Positions 1,170-8,315 of a DNA stretch of 64,000 nt are shown one piece after another; positions within the stretch are counted from its first letter, which is position 1; the number at the start of each line of letters is the position of its first letter. Both the position numbers and the translations under genes were made by a program. Under the pieces are notes generated by a model that did not search any database, had not been told where the DNA came from, and saw only the letters and a program-made list of their open reading frames with translations. Source of the DNA: Georgenia ruanii (lineage in GTDB: Bacteria; Actinomycetota; Actinomycetes; Actinomycetales; Actinomycetaceae); assembly GCF_009193175.1 (NCBI RefSeq), contig NZ_VUKE01000001.1, positions 497,089 through 561,088 of the forward strand, written 5' to 3'.

Positions 1170-2334
1170 CGTGCCCTTCCTCTCGGCAGACCACCCGCAC
1201 CCGCGTGCCCTCGCCGGCCGCGGAGACGATCGTCAGCTCGGCGCCGACCAGGCGCGCCCGCTCATGCATGCCCGTCAGCCCGTAGTGCCCGCGCGGGCTC
1301 GTCCCGTCGGGCCGGGGGCAGAACCCGCGGCCGTCGTCGGCCACGAGCACCTCGATGGCGCCGTCGTCCCGGCGCGCCAGCTCCACCTGCACCCGGGACG
1401 CCGCCGCGTGCCGCGCCACGTTCTCCAGCGCCTCCCCGACGATCGCGACCACCTCGTACCGCGCGTCGGTGCTCAGGTCGACGACGCAGCGGTGCGTGAA
1501 CGAGCAGGGCACCTCCTGGGCGGCCTCCCAGCGGGCGCACATCTCGTGCAGCACCTCGGCCAGGGGCCGGTCGGGCTGGTCCATGCGGGCCATGGTCACG
1601 ATCTGGCGGGTCTCGGCGGCGGCCTGCCGGGCGCCGTCGGCGAGGGCGGCGGCGTACTGCCGCGCCCTGTCGACGTCCTTGTCGATCCACTGCGGCAGCC
1701 CGTCGGCGAGCAGGGAGATCCCGTGGAGGGACTTGCCCAGGGAGTCGTGCAGCTCGCGGGCCAGCCGGGCCCGCTCCTCGGCGGCCGCGCGGGCGGTGCT
1801 CTCGGCCGCGGCCGCCGCGGCCAGCCGGGCCTGCCGGGCGTAGGACCCGCGGGCGGCCATGCCGAGCGCGAGCATGGACAGGAACAGGGTGGGGACGCCG
1901 AGCACCCCCATGAAGGACGGCTCCGGGTCCAGGGTCGCCTCCGAGGCCAGCACGTAGAGCGCGACCAGCATGACCCCGAGGAGCGCGGCGAGGCGCCGCT
2001 CGAACAGCACGCCGTACATCAGCGCGGTCGACAGCGTGGCGAGCACCACCGGCGAGGTGGTCCCCACCATCGCCAGCACCGCGAAGACCATGACCGAGTC
2101 GGCGACGACGGCGAGGGGGTGCCGGGCGACGAGGTCACGCACCCCCGGGACGGCCAGGGCCACGAAGGTCTCCAGGCTGAGCACGACCACGGCGACCAGC
2201 GCGGCCGGCCCGGCGCCGTCGACGACCAGCCACACGAGCGCGGCGCCCAGGCTGGCCAGGCGGGCCAGCAGGGCGGCGCGCACCATCGTCCCGGCGTGGC
2301 GGTGCAGTGGCTCGCTGGTGCTCACCGGTCTCAC
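1162..2334 (-). CDS. Membrane sensor histidine kinase (HisKA_3 type)
   Basis: This 390-residue kinase pairs with the adjacent NarL-type regulator. The first 160 residues hold several hydrophobic helices (about 20-155), followed by an alanine-rich linker. The HisKA_3 dimerisation box is ELHDSLGKSLHG with phospho-acceptor H196. The HATPase domain shows the N box (EALENVARHA, 301-310) and G boxes (DDGRGF 333-338, GLTGM 352-356). It starts with GTG overlapping the tadC stop (GTGA), so it is co-translated with the pilus machinery. The sensor part has no recognisable ligand domain. A signal from the membrane or from pilus assembly is possible but unproven. Confidence 0.88.
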   Translation of the reverse strand: MRPVSTSEPLHRHAGTMVRAALLARLASLGAALVWLVVDGAGPAALVAVVVLSLETFVALAVPGVRDLVARHPLAVVADSVMVFAVLAMVGTTSPVVLATLSTALMYGVLFERRLAALLGVMLVALYVLASEATLDPEPSFMGVLGVPTLFLSMLALGMAARGSYARQARLAAAAAAESTARAAAEERARLARELHDSLGKSLHGISLLADGLPQWIDKDVDRARQYAAALADGARQAAAETRQIVTMARMDQPDRPLAEVLHEMCARWEAAQEVPCSFTHRCVVDLSTDARYEVVAIVGEALENVARHAAASRVQVELARRDDGAIEVLVADDGRGFCPRPDGTSPRGHYGLTGMHERARLVGAELTIVSAAGEGTRVRVVCREEGHDD

Positions 2335-3236
2335 CCGCCCAGGAAGGCGCCGAAGTCGACGTCGGAGCCCACGATGAAGCCGACGATGATGAAGATCAGG
2401 GCGCCGGGCAGGAGGACGACGGAGGTCACCAGGCTCACCCGCGGCGCGGTCTGGGCGGCCTTGCGGCGCTGGCGCTGGGCGCTGTCGCGGCGCATGTCCG
2501 CGGCGATCTGGTTGAGGGACTCCGCCAGCGGGGCGCCGAGCTCCTGGGACTGCAGCAGGGCGGAGACGAAGTGGCCCACGCTCTCCGAGCCGCTGCGCCC
2601 GCGCATGGCCTGGAAGGCGTCGCGCAGCGGCAGGCCGTTGGCGATCTGGGAGATGGTGAGGTTGACCTCGTCGGCCAGGGGGCCCTTGAACCGCTCGGCG
2701 ACGCGCACCAGCGCGGCACGGAAGCTCACCCCGGCGCTGACGGTGACGGCGAGGATGTCAAGGAAGTCCGGCAGGTCCCGGTCGATCCGCTCGCGGCGGC
2801 GGCGCTGGGCCCCGGCCAGGCTCCCCAGCGGCATGAGGACCGGGACGGTCAGCGACAGCAGCGCGATGGGCACGTTGCCCATCGCCAGGAGCAGCAGCGC
2901 GAGGGGGGTGACGAGGATGACCCACAGCGCCGTCCGCTCGAGGAACCCGTCGACCGTGAGCCCGCCGGGCCGGCCCGCCTCCTCGATCCGCGTGCTCAGC
3001 GCCTCGACCTGGCGGCGGGTGAGCAGGCGCCGCAGCCGCGGCGCGAGGGCGGCCGCCAGGCGCCGCAGCGGCGAGACGCCCTCGGCCCGCCGGCGCTGCT
3101 CACGGCGCAGGAGCACGAGGTCCTCGGCGTCCAGGTGGCTGGCGGGGTCGGTGCGCAGGAGGCGGTAGCCGACCAGGAACAGCAGCGCCGCCGCCGCGCC
3201 GGCGCCGGCGAGGGCAAGGGCGAGGGCGGCGCTCAT
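2331..3236 (-). CDS. tadC: Tad pilus inner-membrane platform protein TadC
   Basis: This 301-residue type II secretion F-domain membrane protein forms, with TadB, the inner-membrane platform on which the TadA ATPase acts. An N-terminal membrane helix (about 3-25) is followed by a hydrophobic pair around 105-140. The T2SSF core is RDLPDFLDILAVTVSAG ... ALVRVAERFKGPLADEV, and a C-terminal membrane helix lies around 268-290. Its ATG overlaps the tadB stop by four bases and its stop overlaps the kinase start by four. Length and membrane layout are normal for TadC. Confidence 0.9.
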   Translation of the reverse strand: MSAALALALAGAGAAAALLFLVGYRLLRTDPASHLDAEDLVLLRREQRRRAEGVSPLRRLAAALAPRLRRLLTRRQVEALSTRIEEAGRPGGLTVDGFLERTALWVILVTPLALLLLAMGNVPIALLSLTVPVLMPLGSLAGAQRRRRERIDRDLPDFLDILAVTVSAGVSFRAALVRVAERFKGPLADEVNLTISQIANGLPLRDAFQAMRGRSGSESVGHFVSALLQSQELGAPLAESLNQIAADMRRDSAQRQRRKAAQTAPRVSLVTSVVLLPGALIFIIVGFIVGSDVDFGAFLGG

Positions 3237-4162
3237 CCGTCGAACCGCGTCATGCGGCGGATCGCGACGAACCCGCCCACGAACAGCGCCCCGCCGACGA
3301 CGAGGGCGGCCTGGCCCACGAGCTCGCGGGTCATGGCCTGGACCGTGCCGGGCTGGAGCAGGTTGAGCAGGAACAGCAGCCCGACGCCCAGGACGATCAC
3401 GAGGTATCCCGTCGCGGTCGACTGGGCCAGGGTGGTGCGCACCTCTCGGCGCACCTCCTTGCGCTCGTCGAGGGTGTCGGCGATGTCGCGGAGGGAGGAC
3501 ACGAGCGACCCGCCGCTGCGGGCGCTGACCACCAGCGTGGAGACGAGGACGGAGACCTCCCGGGAGGGCAGCCGCTCCTCCAGCTCGGCGACGGCGGTCT
3601 GCAGGCTCGCCCCGAAGTGCATGCGGGAGGCCACCCGGGCCAGCTCCGGCCCCGCGGGCGCGGCCAGCTCGCGGGAGGCCCGCTCCAGCGCCGTGGCGAT
3701 GGAGAGCCCGGCGTTCGTCGCGTTCGACAGCACCCGGGCGAGCTCGGGCATCTGGGCGACGAACTGCTCCCGGCGGCGCTCCCGCGCCCGGCCGATGTAG
3801 GCGCGGATGCCCAGCACGAACGCCCCCACGCCGCCGAGGCCGAAGATCGGGGCCAGCCCGGCGCCGAGCACCCAGCCCACCGCGCCGGCGGCGCCCAGCG
3901 CCACGGCGACGACGACGATGACCGGCCGGTCCTGCATGCCGGCGAGCATGAGCTGGCGCTCGAGCCAGCGCCCGGGCCGGGTGGCGCGCACGGCGCGGTC
4001 GAGCCGGGCGACCAGCGTGCGGCCGGCGCGGCCGTCCGCGGTCGCGACGGCCTCGGCGAGGGCGCGGCGCCGGTTCGAGGCGAGGGCGAGGTCGCGCAGG
4101 CCCGCCAGCAGGAGCACCGTGGCGGCGAGCACCCCGAGGAGGACGAGCAGCACCGTCGTCAT
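3233..4162 (-). CDS. tadB: Tad pilus inner-membrane platform protein TadB
   Basis: This 309-residue T2SSF-domain protein is the TadC partner. The start chosen is the ATG at 4162 (protein begins MTTVLLVLLG), which overlaps the tadA stop in ATGA; the frame stays open further upstream only as an artefact of GC-rich DNA. An N-terminal membrane helix (about 3-20) and a central hydrophobic pair come before the F domain (ARVLSNATNAGLSIATALER), and membrane segments lie near the C terminus. It should stack with TadC beneath the assembling pilus. Confidence 0.9.
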   Translation of the reverse strand: MTTVLLVLLGVLAATVLLLAGLRDLALASNRRRALAEAVATADGRAGRTLVARLDRAVRATRPGRWLERQLMLAGMQDRPVIVVVAVALGAAGAVGWVLGAGLAPIFGLGGVGAFVLGIRAYIGRARERRREQFVAQMPELARVLSNATNAGLSIATALERASRELAAPAGPELARVASRMHFGASLQTAVAELEERLPSREVSVLVSTLVVSARSGGSLVSSLRDIADTLDERKEVRREVRTTLAQSTATGYLVIVLGVGLLFLLNLLQPGTVQAMTRELVGQAALVVGGALFVGGFVAIRRMTRFDG

Positions 4163-5586
4163 GGCCGCGCTCCGGCGGGCTCGGTCAGCGGCGGCGGGGG
4201 CGGCGGTCCGGCGTCGACGACAGGACGGGCGCCGACGTCGACCACGGGACGGGGCCGGCCGTCGTCGTCGAGCTCGCCGGCCACCCGGAGGCGGTCGAGG
4301 AGCTGCTCGGGCACCGGCAGCTGGACGAAGGCGCCGATCCGGCCGTCCGCGCCCACCCGCTCGGGGTCCCAGTACATGACCGGCGCGATGGCGAAGTCCT
4401 CGCGGTTGCGGGAGGTGACACAGCCGACCTCGGTGACCCGGCGGGTGCCGTCGGAGCCGCGGGTGAGCTGGAGGACCACGTCGATGGCGTTGTTGACCTG
4501 GTCGCGCAGCGCGTGGAAGGGGATCTCGATGTCGCTCATCGAGGCCAGCGTCTCGAGGCGGTTGAGCGCGTCGTAGCTGGTGTTGGCGTGCACGGTGGCC
4601 AGGGAGCCCTCGTGGCCGGTGTTCATCGCCTGGAGCATGTCGAGCGCCTCGCCGCCGCGGACCTCGCCGACGATGATGCGGTCCGGGCGCATGCGCAGGG
4701 CGTTGCGCACCAGGTCGCGGATGGTGACCTGGCCGTGGCCCTCGACGTTGGCCGGCCGGGTCTCCAGGCGCACCACGTGCTCCTGGGACAGGGACAGCTC
4801 GGCGGCGTCCTCGATGGTGATGATGCGCTGCTTGGGCTGGATGAACGCCGACAGCGCGTTGAGCATCGTGGTCTTGCCCGAGGCGGTCCCGCCCGAGACG
4901 ATGACGTTGAGCCGGGCCCGCACGCACGCCGCCAGCAGGTTGGCCGTGGCGACGTCGAGGCTCTGGCGGGCGAGGAGCTCGTCGAGGCCGTAGGCCTTGG
5001 GGAAGAGCCGGATGGTCATCGTCGGCCCGTCCAGCGCCAGGGGCGGGAGGACCACGTGGACGCGGGCGCCGCGCGGCATGCGCTCGTCCGGGGGCAGGCG
5101 GGCGTCGACCATGGGGCTGGACTCGTCCACGCGCCGGTTGACGGTGGACACGATCCGGTCGATGGTCTGGCGCAGCTGCGCCTCGGAGGCGAACGCGTTC
5201 GCGGTGCGCTCGAGCTGGCCGAACCGCTCGACGTAGATGGTGCCGTGGCCGTTGACCATGATCTCGCTGACGGTCTCGTCGGCGATCAGCGGCTCGAGGA
5301 CGCCCAGGCCGATGGACTCGTCCACGACCCGCCGGATGAGGGCGTTGCGCTCCCGGGTGGTGAGGATGACGCCCTCGGTGGAGACCAGGTGCGCGACGAC
5401 CCGCTCGAGGCGGATGCGCCGCTGGGCCAGCTCGAGGCGGCCGAGCTCGTACAGGTCGACCTCGTCGAGCAGCTTGCGCTTGAAGCTCTCGACGAGCCCG
5501 TCGTCGAGCTCCTGCTTGGCCAGGGAGAGGTCGGCGCGGGTGCGGCCACCGGCGCCGGCCCCCGCCCAGTCGCTGAAGCCCCTCAT
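4159..5586 (-). CDS. tadA: Tad pilus assembly ATPase TadA (CpaF)
   Basis: This 475-residue secretion ATPase of the VirB11/CpaF class powers Flp pilus assembly and possibly retraction. The N-terminal domain (about 25-200) holds the conserved linker EIMVNGHGTIYVE. The Walker A loop is GGTASGKT (232-239), the Asp box is ITIEDAAEL (256-264), and the Walker B region is RIIVGEVRGGE (303-313) with the His box GHEGSLATVHAN. The last 60 or so residues are proline-rich and variable. Four-base overlaps join it to tadE upstream and tadB downstream. Confidence 0.95.
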   Translation of the reverse strand: MRGFSDWAGAGAGGRTRADLSLAKQELDDGLVESFKRKLLDEVDLYELGRLELAQRRIRLERVVAHLVSTEGVILTTRERNALIRRVVDESIGLGVLEPLIADETVSEIMVNGHGTIYVERFGQLERTANAFASEAQLRQTIDRIVSTVNRRVDESSPMVDARLPPDERMPRGARVHVVLPPLALDGPTMTIRLFPKAYGLDELLARQSLDVATANLLAACVRARLNVIVSGGTASGKTTMLNALSAFIQPKQRIITIEDAAELSLSQEHVVRLETRPANVEGHGQVTIRDLVRNALRMRPDRIIVGEVRGGEALDMLQAMNTGHEGSLATVHANTSYDALNRLETLASMSDIEIPFHALRDQVNNAIDVVLQLTRGSDGTRRVTEVGCVTSRNREDFAIAPVMYWDPERVGADGRIGAFVQLPVPEQLLDRLRVAGELDDDGRPRPVVDVGARPVVDAGPPPPPPLTEPAGARP

Positions 5587-5972
5587 GGCATGACCGCCGT
5601 GCGGGTGACCCGCAGCTCCGGGATGAACGGCGCCATGCGCGGGACGTCGAGGACGAGCCGGACCTTCCCGCCCGTGCCGGAGAGCTCGCGGGGCGTGAGG
5701 GTGCCGGGCAGCGAGCGGTCCACGGCCGCGGCCACCGACCCGCCCAGGCTCGCGGCTCGGGCGCCGTCGCGCACGGCCTGGTTGGCGGCGTGCACCGTGT
5801 AGACGCCCGCGAGGACCTGCAGCGTGGCGAGGGCCACGAGCACGACGACCGGGAGGACGCCGAGCATCTCGAGGGCGGCCGAGCCGCGCTCGGACCCGGC
5901 GCCGCGCAGCCGTCGACGCCGGGGCGCCGCGACGGCCGGCCGGTGCACGGCGGTGACGCGGGGGCCGCTCAC
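5583..5972 (-). CDS. tadE: TadE-like minor pseudopilin
   Basis: This 129-residue protein starts at a GTG that overlaps the upstream fusion gene's stop (GTGA). A basic 28-residue leader ends in the pseudopilin motif G-SAALE (glycine, four residues, glutamate), followed by one hydrophobic helix (about 38-58) and an exported tail. This is the TadE/TadF pattern processed by prepilin peptidase. It is the second TadE-like segment in tandem, the first being the C terminus of the adjacent fusion, so the two may play the TadE and TadF roles. Confidence 0.82.
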   Translation of the reverse strand: MSGPRVTAVHRPAVAAPRRRRLRGAGSERGSAALEMLGVLPVVVLVALATLQVLAGVYTVHAANQAVRDGARAASLGGSVAAAVDRSLPGTLTPRELSGTGGKVRLVLDVPRMAPFIPELRVTRTAVMP

Positions 5973-7585
5973 GGCCGGGGCTCCTTCACGACGTTGCGGC
6001 TGACCTCGACCTCCCAGGGCAGTCGCGCCAGGCCCGGGGCGGCGAGGGGCACGTCGACCCGGACGGTGACCTTCTCCGAGGCGGGGGCGTAGGAGACGGC
6101 GGCCGCGTCGGCGACGCCCGCGGGCAGCTCGGCCACCGCCGCGCGCTCGATGACTCCGCCGTCGCGCTCGCCCAGGGCCACGGTGCGCGCGGCCGCCGCG
6201 GCGGCGTGCCCGGTCCACACGTAGGTCAGGCCCGCCATGCCGAGCTGCCACAGCACGGCGAGGACGAGCAGCGCGACGGGCAGGACGCCGAGCAGCTCGA
6301 CGCTCGCCGAGCCCTCCTCGCGCCGGCGCCGCAGCCCGGCCCCCTGCCGGCGGCGGCCGCGCCGGGTCGACGGCGCCCCGCCGTCGGCCTCCGCGGGCGG
6401 CGACGGCTCCTCGCGGCGCCGCTCGAGCGCGGCCAGGACGCCGAGGGCGGAGCCGACCTCGCGCAGCCGCTCCCACCACTTCTTGTCGTCGACGAGCTCG
6501 GGTGCGCGGGAGTTCACCGCCTTCTCCAGGCTCCGGGTGATCTCCGGCAGGACCGCGGGCAGCAGGGGCGCGGGCGAGAGCTGGCGCAGCGTCTCCGGCT
6601 GCACCTCCTGCGCGCGGCTGTGCTTGTTGACCAGGACCCGCACGTCGGCGGGCTTGCGGGCGGCCAGGGACTCCCAGAAGGCGACGTTGCGGCGCAGCGC
6701 CCGCACGCTGATGAGGTCGGGGGTGACGACGGCGACCACCTCGTCGGCCAGCTCCACCACCGCGGCCTGCACCGGGGTGACGTGGGCGCCGGCGTCGATG
6801 ACGACGAGGTCGAACTGCTGGCGCAGCAGGGCCATGATCAGCCGCACCGCGGCGGGGGTGACCCACTCGACGTCGCGGATGTCCTCCGGCGGCAGCAGCA
6901 GGGACAGCCCGGACTCGTGCTCGAAGACGGCGTCCAGGACCGTGTGCGCGGACAGGTCGTCGGCGACCTTGGCCAGGTCGGCGACCGAGGTGCGGTACTT
7001 CGCCTCGATGAGGCTGGTGACGTCGCCCTTCTCCAGGTCGAGGTCGACCAGCAGGACCTTGAGGCCCGGGGTCTGCCGGCGCACGTCCCAGGCCAGGTGG
7101 GTGGCGATCGTCGTCGTGCCGACCCCGCCCTTGGTGCCGGTGACGGCGACCACCCGGCCGCGCGAGCCGTCCGTGGCCGCGTCCTCCCCCGCGGTGGTCA
7201 GCATGCGCCGCAGGTGGCGGGACCACTCGATGGCCCCCATGACCCGCTGCTGGACCTCGGTGAAGGAGAACGGGTGGGTGAGCACGCCGCGGGCGCCGGC
7301 GTTCATGGCGTCGGAGATGGACTCGGCGCTGCCGTCGACCACCATGAGCACGACCGAGGCGGGCCGGCGCAGGGACAGGTCGCGCACCGCCTGGTGGACG
7401 GGCTCGGGGCCGAGGGCGTCGTGGACGACGACGAGCTGGGGGTCGCGCTCGATCACCGTGCGCACGAGCTCGCTGGTGCTCTCGGCGACGGCGAGCAGCT
7501 CGACGTCGGCCGCCTCGCCGAGCTGGGCGCGGATCGCGGCGGCCATGGTCTGGTCGGCGCAGCCGATCACCACCTGGGTGGCCAT
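5969..7585 (-). CDS. CpaE/TadZ-like ATPase fused to a TadE-like pseudopilin
   Basis: This 538-residue protein has three parts. Residues 1-125 resemble an atypical receiver domain, as in CpaE/TadZ. Residues 140-390 are a MinD/ParA-like ATPase with deviant Walker A TGTKGGVGTTT (from T149), LLVDLDLEKGD and LVVIDAGAH. Then comes a basic low-complexity linker (390-424) and a TadE-like segment from 426 with the cleavage motif G425-SASVE and a membrane helix (about 431-449). Normally CpaE/TadZ localises the Tad machine in the cytoplasm and TadE is a separate exported pseudopilin. No ATG, GTG or TTG lies in frame between residues 390 and 425, so independent translation of the pseudopilin looks unlikely. 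Processing at G425 could separate the two parts. Confidence 0.85.
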   Translation of the reverse strand: MATQVVIGCADQTMAAAIRAQLGEAADVELLAVAESTSELVRTVIERDPQLVVVHDALGPEPVHQAVRDLSLRRPASVVLMVVDGSAESISDAMNAGARGVLTHPFSFTEVQQRVMGAIEWSRHLRRMLTTAGEDAATDGSRGRVVAVTGTKGGVGTTTIATHLAWDVRRQTPGLKVLLVDLDLEKGDVTSLIEAKYRTSVADLAKVADDLSAHTVLDAVFEHESGLSLLLPPEDIRDVEWVTPAAVRLIMALLRQQFDLVVIDAGAHVTPVQAAVVELADEVVAVVTPDLISVRALRRNVAFWESLAARKPADVRVLVNKHSRAQEVQPETLRQLSPAPLLPAVLPEITRSLEKAVNSRAPELVDDKKWWERLREVGSALGVLAALERRREEPSPPAEADGGAPSTRRGRRRQGAGLRRRREEGSASVELLGVLPVALLVLAVLWQLGMAGLTYVWTGHAAAAAARTVALGERDGGVIERAAVAELPAGVADAAAVSYAPASEKVTVRVDVPLAAPGLARLPWEVEVSRNVVKEPRP

Positions 7586-7586
7586 G

Positions 7587-8315
7587 TCAGTTCACCCCTT
7601 CCGGGATCGGCTGGCCGCCGAGCTGCCCGGCGTCGTAGCGGTCCTGCTCGCCGGTGCGGTCCTCGGCGGTGCCGGCGGGCAGGCCCACGAGGCGGACCTC
7701 GGCGGCGAAGGCGTCGGCGTAGGTGACGGCGAGGGCGTCGTTGGGCTCCAGGGCGAGCGTGACGGGGATGACCTGCTGCTCCCCCAGCGCGGCGCCGTCC
7801 TCCTGGACGACGGTCCGCTCGCCGGCGACGGTGACCACCCGCACGCTGCGCACGAGGACCCGCACCTGCTGGGGCAGGCCGGGCACGTCGGCGAAGACGG
7901 CGTAGATGTCGACGAAGTCGCCCGGCTCCACCCGCCCGGCGATGCCGGTGACGGCGTCGACCTCGATGGCGATCTCGCGCTCGGTGGGGCTGAGGTCGGA
8001 CGGCGGGACGAGCATGTCGGCGGTGACCATCGTGCCCTCGGCGAGGGCGACGCCGACCCGGCGGTCGACCAGGTCCTCGAGGGGTACCTGGGCCGAGTCG
8101 GAGAGCCACCGGGTGGGCACCTCGTCCTCGACGAGGGCGTCCGGGGTGAGGGTGGCGTAGGCCGGCAGCGGCCCGGAGGCGCGATAGACGGTGGTGGTGG
8201 GGCCGACGGCGCTCGCCACGCTCGAGAGGTACTGCAAGACGACGAGGAACACCCCGCCGGCCACGAGCACCGCCAGGAGCATGAAGAGGACGCCGCGGCG
8301 CTGACGGGGGTTCAT
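7587..8315 (-). CDS. cpaB: Flp pilus assembly protein CpaB/RcpC (SAF domain)
   Basis: This 242-residue protein is anchored by an N-terminal helix (about 8-28). A SAF domain follows (about 45-103: PLPAYATLTPDALVEDEVP ... RRVGVALAEGTMVTADML), then the CpaB C-terminal domain (AIEVDAVTGIAGRVEPGDFVDIY). CpaB/RcpC stabilises the pilus or secretin in other Tad systems; an actinobacterium has no outer membrane, so its partner here is unknown. One base separates its stop from the fusion gene's start, and its ATG overlaps the preceding stop in ATGA. Confidence 0.87.
   Translation of the reverse strand: MNPRQRRGVLFMLLAVLVAGGVFLVVLQYLSSVASAVGPTTTVYRASGPLPAYATLTPDALVEDEVPTRWLSDSAQVPLEDLVDRRVGVALAEGTMVTADMLVPPSDLSPTEREIAIEVDAVTGIAGRVEPGDFVDIYAVFADVPGLPQQVRVLVRSVRVVTVAGERTVVQEDGAALGEQQVIPVTLALEPNDALAVTYADAFAAEVRLVGLPAGTAEDRTGEQDRYDAGQLGGQPIPEGVN

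Follow-up and report, generated by a model that had tools for sequence, protein, structure and literature searches.

A single gene of Georgenia ruanii encodes a TadZ/CpaE-like ATPase and a TadE pseudopilin in one chain, with a class III (prepilin peptidase) cleavage motif where the two meet. This domain order recurs among Actinomycetota, in which 69 loci proved to be fused, in 67 genomes belonging to 15 families; 33 split loci were compared with them. On the basis of sequence comparison, we estimate at about 0.7 the probability that the fusion is a Tad-pilus polyprotein cut by prepilin peptidase after G425. The parts are known and their joint arrangement is new; the use made of the prepilin peptidase is probably new as well.

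The fused gene

The gene occupies positions 5969–7585 (minus strand) of the window, by which we mean the whole stretch of 64,000 nucleotides that was analysed. It is a single open reading frame of 538 amino acids with an ATG start and no internal stops. The original prediction had placed an ATPase and a pseudopilin together in this frame, and the coordinates, the strand and both Pfam domains agree with it: AAA_31 is found at residues 144–299 (40.4 bits, cut-off 27) and TadE (PF07811) at residues 425–467, with 23.9 bits, about 1 bit above the cut-off of 22.9.

The TadZ/CpaE-like part (6470–7585, minus strand) comprises residues 1–372, its C-terminal border being a working estimate. It is followed by the linker (6311–6469, minus strand; residues 373–425), which is Arg-rich, contains no in-frame ATG, GTG or TTG and ends in G425. 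The cleavage motif, G425|S-A-S-V-E430 (6296–6313, minus strand), is conserved in the 69 fusions (see below). The TadE1 pseudopilin part (5969–6310, minus strand; residues 426–538 and the stop codon) carries the PF07811 match and consists of one hydrophobic helix followed by a domain predicted to face outside; it groups with the TadE1 genes of the split loci. A structure model of the fusion was built from two near-identical sequences and has a mean pLDDT of 40.8, and is not usable for a fold search.

The ATPase resembles TadZ/CpaE in its atypical Walker A motif and in its place in a Tad operon beside RcpC/CpaB and CpaF, the role of TadZ and its atypical Walker A being as given in PMC6668835 and PMC13170226. 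It differs in that the chain adds a linker and a TadE domain, in that it stands apart from classic TadZ, and in its score with the NCBIfam model TIGR03815 (CpaE_hom_Actino), which at 53.9 bits is below the cut-off of 154.45, so that the equivalog is not assigned. Among 16 solved chains matching the TadZ part by sequence, 15 are ParA/MinD-type ATPases and the remaining one is a de novo protein. Residues 11–115 give a weak receiver-like match (Pfam Response_reg, 21 bits), under the cut-off of 30.2. The P-loop is KGGVGTTT (window positions 7109–7141, residues 149–159). Its first lysine, K152, is kept in all 102 members of the TadZ clade, and the usual P-loop lysine is missing from all 102, residue 157 being T, A, V, S or C. 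This is a fixed departure from Walker A in the TadZ clade.

The pseudopilin part is like the TadE/TadF pseudopilins in its PF07811 match and in having G|xxxxE followed by one hydrophobic helix. G425 is followed by SASVE (residues 426–430) with glutamate at +5, as had been claimed, and the joint further shares with class III signal peptides the basic side before the cut and the hydrophobic stretch after it. The difference from both lies in the leader, since 425 residues precede the cut site in place of a short hydrophilic leader; prepilin leaders are given as 6–26 residues, or about 15–30 for type IVb, in a review (PMC4471445). Maturation of TadE and TadF is attributed to TadV (PMC10499894, citing Tomich et al. 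2006).

Genomic context

The fusion sits in a Tad operon, all of whose genes named here are on the minus strand. Directly upstream is RcpC/CpaB (7587–8315), with PF16976 and TIGR03177 above cut-off. On the other side lies a separate pseudopilin gene, TadE2 (5583–5972; PF07811, 33.1 bits), whose GTG start overlaps the TGA stop of the fusion and is preceded by AAGGAG. It is followed by the CpaF/TadA motor ATPase (4159–5586; PF00437, 216.5 bits) and by two T2SSF platform genes, one of the TadB type (3233–4156; PF00482, 72.5 bits; start provisional, scanned from 4156) and one of the TadC type (2331–3236; PF00482, 80.5 bits). A Flp-like pilin candidate at 84–287, identified by a script scan and by its translation, has the joint G|QGTLEY behind an ordinary 23-residue leader.

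Directly downstream of TadC and in the same direction, positions 480–2334 contain frames that, judged by eye from their translations, resemble a histidine kinase and a response regulator; they are perhaps regulators of the pilus. Past the window edge (L146, near 4334, minus strand) there is a frame with a G|AATLE joint followed by more than 400 residues; it may encode a TadG-like tip protein belonging to this cluster.

Distribution of the fusion

A listing of domain orders in actinobacterial genomes had been suggested with the original prediction, and the recurrence of the ATPase–TadE order in the 69 loci is its outcome. The genus, family, order, class and phylum samples, which overlap, were searched with the whole protein; the counts for family, order and class include strong matches only (E 1e-35 or better), and the frame and the TadE domain were read by script. 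In the genus sample (nine genomes), all four genomes with the TadZ type of the window are fused, so that the alternative once considered, two separate genes with a frameshift in close relatives, is not what is found. The sequence of Georgenia thermotolerans (NZ_VUKF01000006.1) is 98 per cent identical over residues 1–537, with the same frame open. The TadZ type is present in 22 of the 200 genomes of the family sample (21 fused, one split), in 27 of the 396 of the order sample (24 fused, two split, one interrupted by a contig end) and in 49 of the 296 of the class sample (19 fused, 30 split). The phylum sample (296 genomes) adds nine genomes outside the class, every one with the fusion, for 10 fused loci. 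A plasmid search (tblastn) gave no matches to the fusion at E 1e-10.

Weaker TadZ-like loci (phmmer E above 1e-28) were treated as classic TadZ and left out of the counts, and L135 (E 2e-31, without TadE) was assigned to the outgroup. Also left out were L004, L024, L027 and L049 (duplicates), L053 (at a contig end) and L143. As a control, an in-frame TadE domain was found in none of 22 weaker, classic-type TadZ loci, with a profile trained on fusion-type TadE that a diverged TadE could escape. The locus L143 (G1084:C15) has a TadZ of this type beside which no TadE was found; its genome is one of the nine from outside the class and has two fused copies elsewhere.

Fused and split forms

More distant orthologues carry TadZ and TadE as two genes, and this two-gene form is a natural alternative state. 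In the 33 orthologous split loci, the same TadE is a separate gene next downstream of TadZ; the TadE1 start nearest the TadZ stop has an offset of −1 in 14 of 32 cases and of −5 in six. In two split loci of the window's order, L067 and L068 (f7g42), the TadZ frame extends by 262 and 216 Pro/Ala-rich residues, which look like a linker retained when the join was broken.

Fused and split TadE1 have a common origin. A branch with a support of 99 separates the two together from TadE2, with one change, in a tree of 204 rows and few columns. By the same grouping we reject the possibility that TadE1 is a stray copy of TadE2.

For the TadZ part, a tree was made by a quick method from 102 rows and seven classic TadZ outgroup sequences; a branch with support 100 separates the fusion's clade from these seven. 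The fused or split state changes at least seven times on this tree, and four of the changes are forced by starred (strong) branches. In a thinned tree of 83 rows, from which 19 rows including the long-branched L045 and L142 had been dropped, there are six changes, and the AU test rejects the grouping of all split loci in one clade (p-AU 1.8e-62), a group that was named after the tree had been seen. At the base of the clade there are six branches, three wholly fused and three mixed; the mixed branch g148 is split in 22 of 27 cases. The fused state is probably the older, the join having been broken, or broken and remade, several times, a direction that is read from a tree with long branches and an unresolved base. 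The two states stand in for each other, as would be expected if the fusion yields two products.

Conservation of the cleavage motif

The linker and TadE part of the 69 fusions were aligned without anchoring on the cleavage motif. Gly-1 is present in all 69 and forms the most conserved column of the region. Position +5, the third most conserved column, is always acidic (67 E, two D); at position −3, 62 fusions have E or D and seven have Q. The TadE domain beyond the helix contains strongly conserved columns as well. Counted from where the match to residues 1–372 of the window protein ends, the linker is between 32 and 253 residues long (59 fusions). An invariant Gly-1 behind a linker that varies both in sequence and in length points to processing, and a peptidase most likely still uses this glycine. 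An unused glycine would be expected to have drifted somewhere among sequences whose identity falls to about 30 per cent; the leader glycine is described as absolutely critical for prepilin processing (PMC4471445). Common ancestry could explain part of the conservation, since G and E are also kept in split TadE1 (Gly-1 33/33, Glu+5 33/33) and in TadE2 (102/102 and 101/102), where the motif was chosen by a pattern that favours these residues.

Two further columns of the alignment are of note. One, in the Arg-rich stretch of the linker, is R in 62 of the 69 fusions; the other, column 499 at the C-terminal end of the TadE1 domain, is Glu in 68 of them and is the second most conserved C-terminal column.

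In eight pairs of related fusions, some of which differ by few changes, dN/dS is 0.05–0.21 for TadZ, 0.07–0.69 for the linker and 0.04–0.50 for TadE. The range is highest in the linker, which is thus the loosest part of the chain.

A prepilin peptidase (PF01478) is found above cut-off in all 58 fused genomes examined out of the 67, and in three of three split genomes. It is also present in 12 of 14 control genomes, so its presence in the fused genomes argues only weakly for a cut. The genome of the window has two A24 peptidase matches, on contigs C35 and C18, the latter inside a second Tad locus. None was found on the contig of the window; the enzyme would therefore have to act in trans, from another locus.

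Alternative explanations

The chain could remain whole, as the original prediction had also allowed. It would then be a membrane-anchored ATPase, with a TadE part that has ceased to enter the pilus and instead tethers TadZ to the pilus platform. A long and variable linker would suit such a tether, which is also sterically sensible because the CpaE ring and the minor pilins are placed at the same platform in Caulobacter (PMC13170226). We nevertheless consider it rather unlikely, since it leaves the Gly-1 of all the fusions without explanation. We know of no role for this glycine in an uncut tether. The conservation of TadE beyond its helix and the low dN/dS of this part also speak against a tether, as does the interchange of fused and split forms, the split loci having no tether at all. 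In the alignment of the fusions, a spaced hydrophobic pattern is preserved beyond the ATPase domain, a further point against a tether, although the helical moment at the TadZ end is weakly above that of shuffled sequences (0.475 fused, 0.455 split, 0.423 shuffled). What had been proposed, a chain either cut or tethering, stands as regards the fusion and its joint, which are real and conserved; of the two outcomes, the cut, which we infer, is the better supported, by the invariant Gly-1 and by the interchange of states.

Two products could also arise by translation, as the full-length fusion and a TadE1 made from a start inside the linker. At least one in-frame ATG, GTG or TTG is present within the last 60 codons before the glycine in 55 of the 69 fusions, with a Shine–Dalgarno match of at least four bases in 25; a four-base match accompanies 34 of 103 in-frame linker starts, against 21 per cent of 87 out-of-frame starts. 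Such matches are, however, well above this level at the starts of split TadE1 (24 of 32, the 33rd gene having no start near the TadZ stop), the positions of the starts within the linkers scatter widely, and 14 fusions, that of the window included, have no start at all within the 60 codons. The window's gene had been said to contain none at residues 390–425; this is true, and the free stretch is longer (residues 358–425), since the last in-frame start, a GTG, is codon 357 and belongs to the TadZ part. As a general source of TadE1 an internal start is rejected for these 14 fusions and could operate in the others, and we judge the explanation improbable. Hardly credible is an artefact of assembly or sequencing, or a decaying locus. 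The linker has about 87 per cent G+C (measured over 6311–6465), against 75 per cent for the whole window, and G+C-rich stretches are prone to indel errors. We reject error and decay because the fusion recurs in so many genomes, at least 14 of the 69 loci coming from genomes listed as a single contig, because the frame is intact in the 98 per cent identical relative, and because dN/dS is below 1 in TadZ, linker and TadE alike.

Proposed mechanism and significance

If the fusion is a polyprotein, the chain would insert through the TadE helix, the TadZ-type ATPase staying in the cytoplasm, and the cut after G425 would be made by a prepilin peptidase whose gene lies elsewhere in the genome. Once freed, TadE1 would be a mature pseudopilin and, with TadE2, would serve in the base or priming complex of the pilus; TadZ would be released and would act at the same membrane platform beside CpaF. 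The ATPase and linker would in effect serve as a leader peptide. In a study of Caulobacter, in which predicted models were set in a tomogram map, the TadZ homologue CpaE is fitted at the inner membrane as a ring around the CpaF motor, with the minor pilins at the platform above this ring (PMC13170226); the two halves of the fusion would thus act at one place. In the same model, each machine contains six dimers of CpaE and few minor pilins. With such unequal copy numbers, equal production of the two halves would be a by-product rather than an evident purpose, and the fixed 1:1 ratio that had been proposed as a result of the cut fits poorly as its purpose.

A more elaborate reading, doubtful as a whole though conceivable, makes cleavage a checkpoint of assembly. 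As yet uncut, the chain would bring the pseudopilin to the TadZ-marked site; only there, at the platform and the peptidase, would TadE1 be cut free, priming the pilus, and TadZ would then be released to act on CpaF. If this is true, the start of a pilus would include the release, by prepilin peptidase, of an ATPase until then anchored in the membrane.

No description of a TadZ/CpaE–TadE fusion was found in the open-access full-text literature, in a search that included few subscription papers and no preprints; the statement in the original prediction that no such Tad polyprotein was known agrees with this. No precedent for a folded domain as a prepilin leader was found in the literature consulted on leaders. 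In Micrococcus luteus, said to have no TadZ orthologue, a fused TadB–TadC frame is reported for the tad-2 cluster (PMC4322843). There too, two Tad genes of an actinobacterium share one frame, but the partners are two platform proteins, and the description of that fusion does not mention a peptidase site at the joint.

If the chain is cut, prepilin peptidase tolerates a folded domain, several hundred residues long, in the role of a ‘leader’, and prepilin searches keyed on short N-terminal leaders would miss such substrates. If it is not, the protein would be a MinD-like ATPase anchored in the membrane, its pilin domain outside, which would be stranger still. Cut or not, the domain order is spread across a phylum. 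The fused and split loci provide a natural series for asking what TadZ and TadE do together, their cooperation being a step in the assembly of Tad pili that is poorly understood.

Other Tad loci of Georgenia ruanii

The genome of Georgenia ruanii apparently contains three Tad-type loci: that of the window (contig C11), L144 (C18) and L147 (C22). The locus on C22 was judged from Flp-like and TadE-like frames beside a TadZ match. Of the three, only the one on C18 has an A24 peptidase match. The locus on C18 has its own Flp, TadE, TadE/G-like gene, RcpC, TadZ-type ATPase, CpaF and two platform genes.
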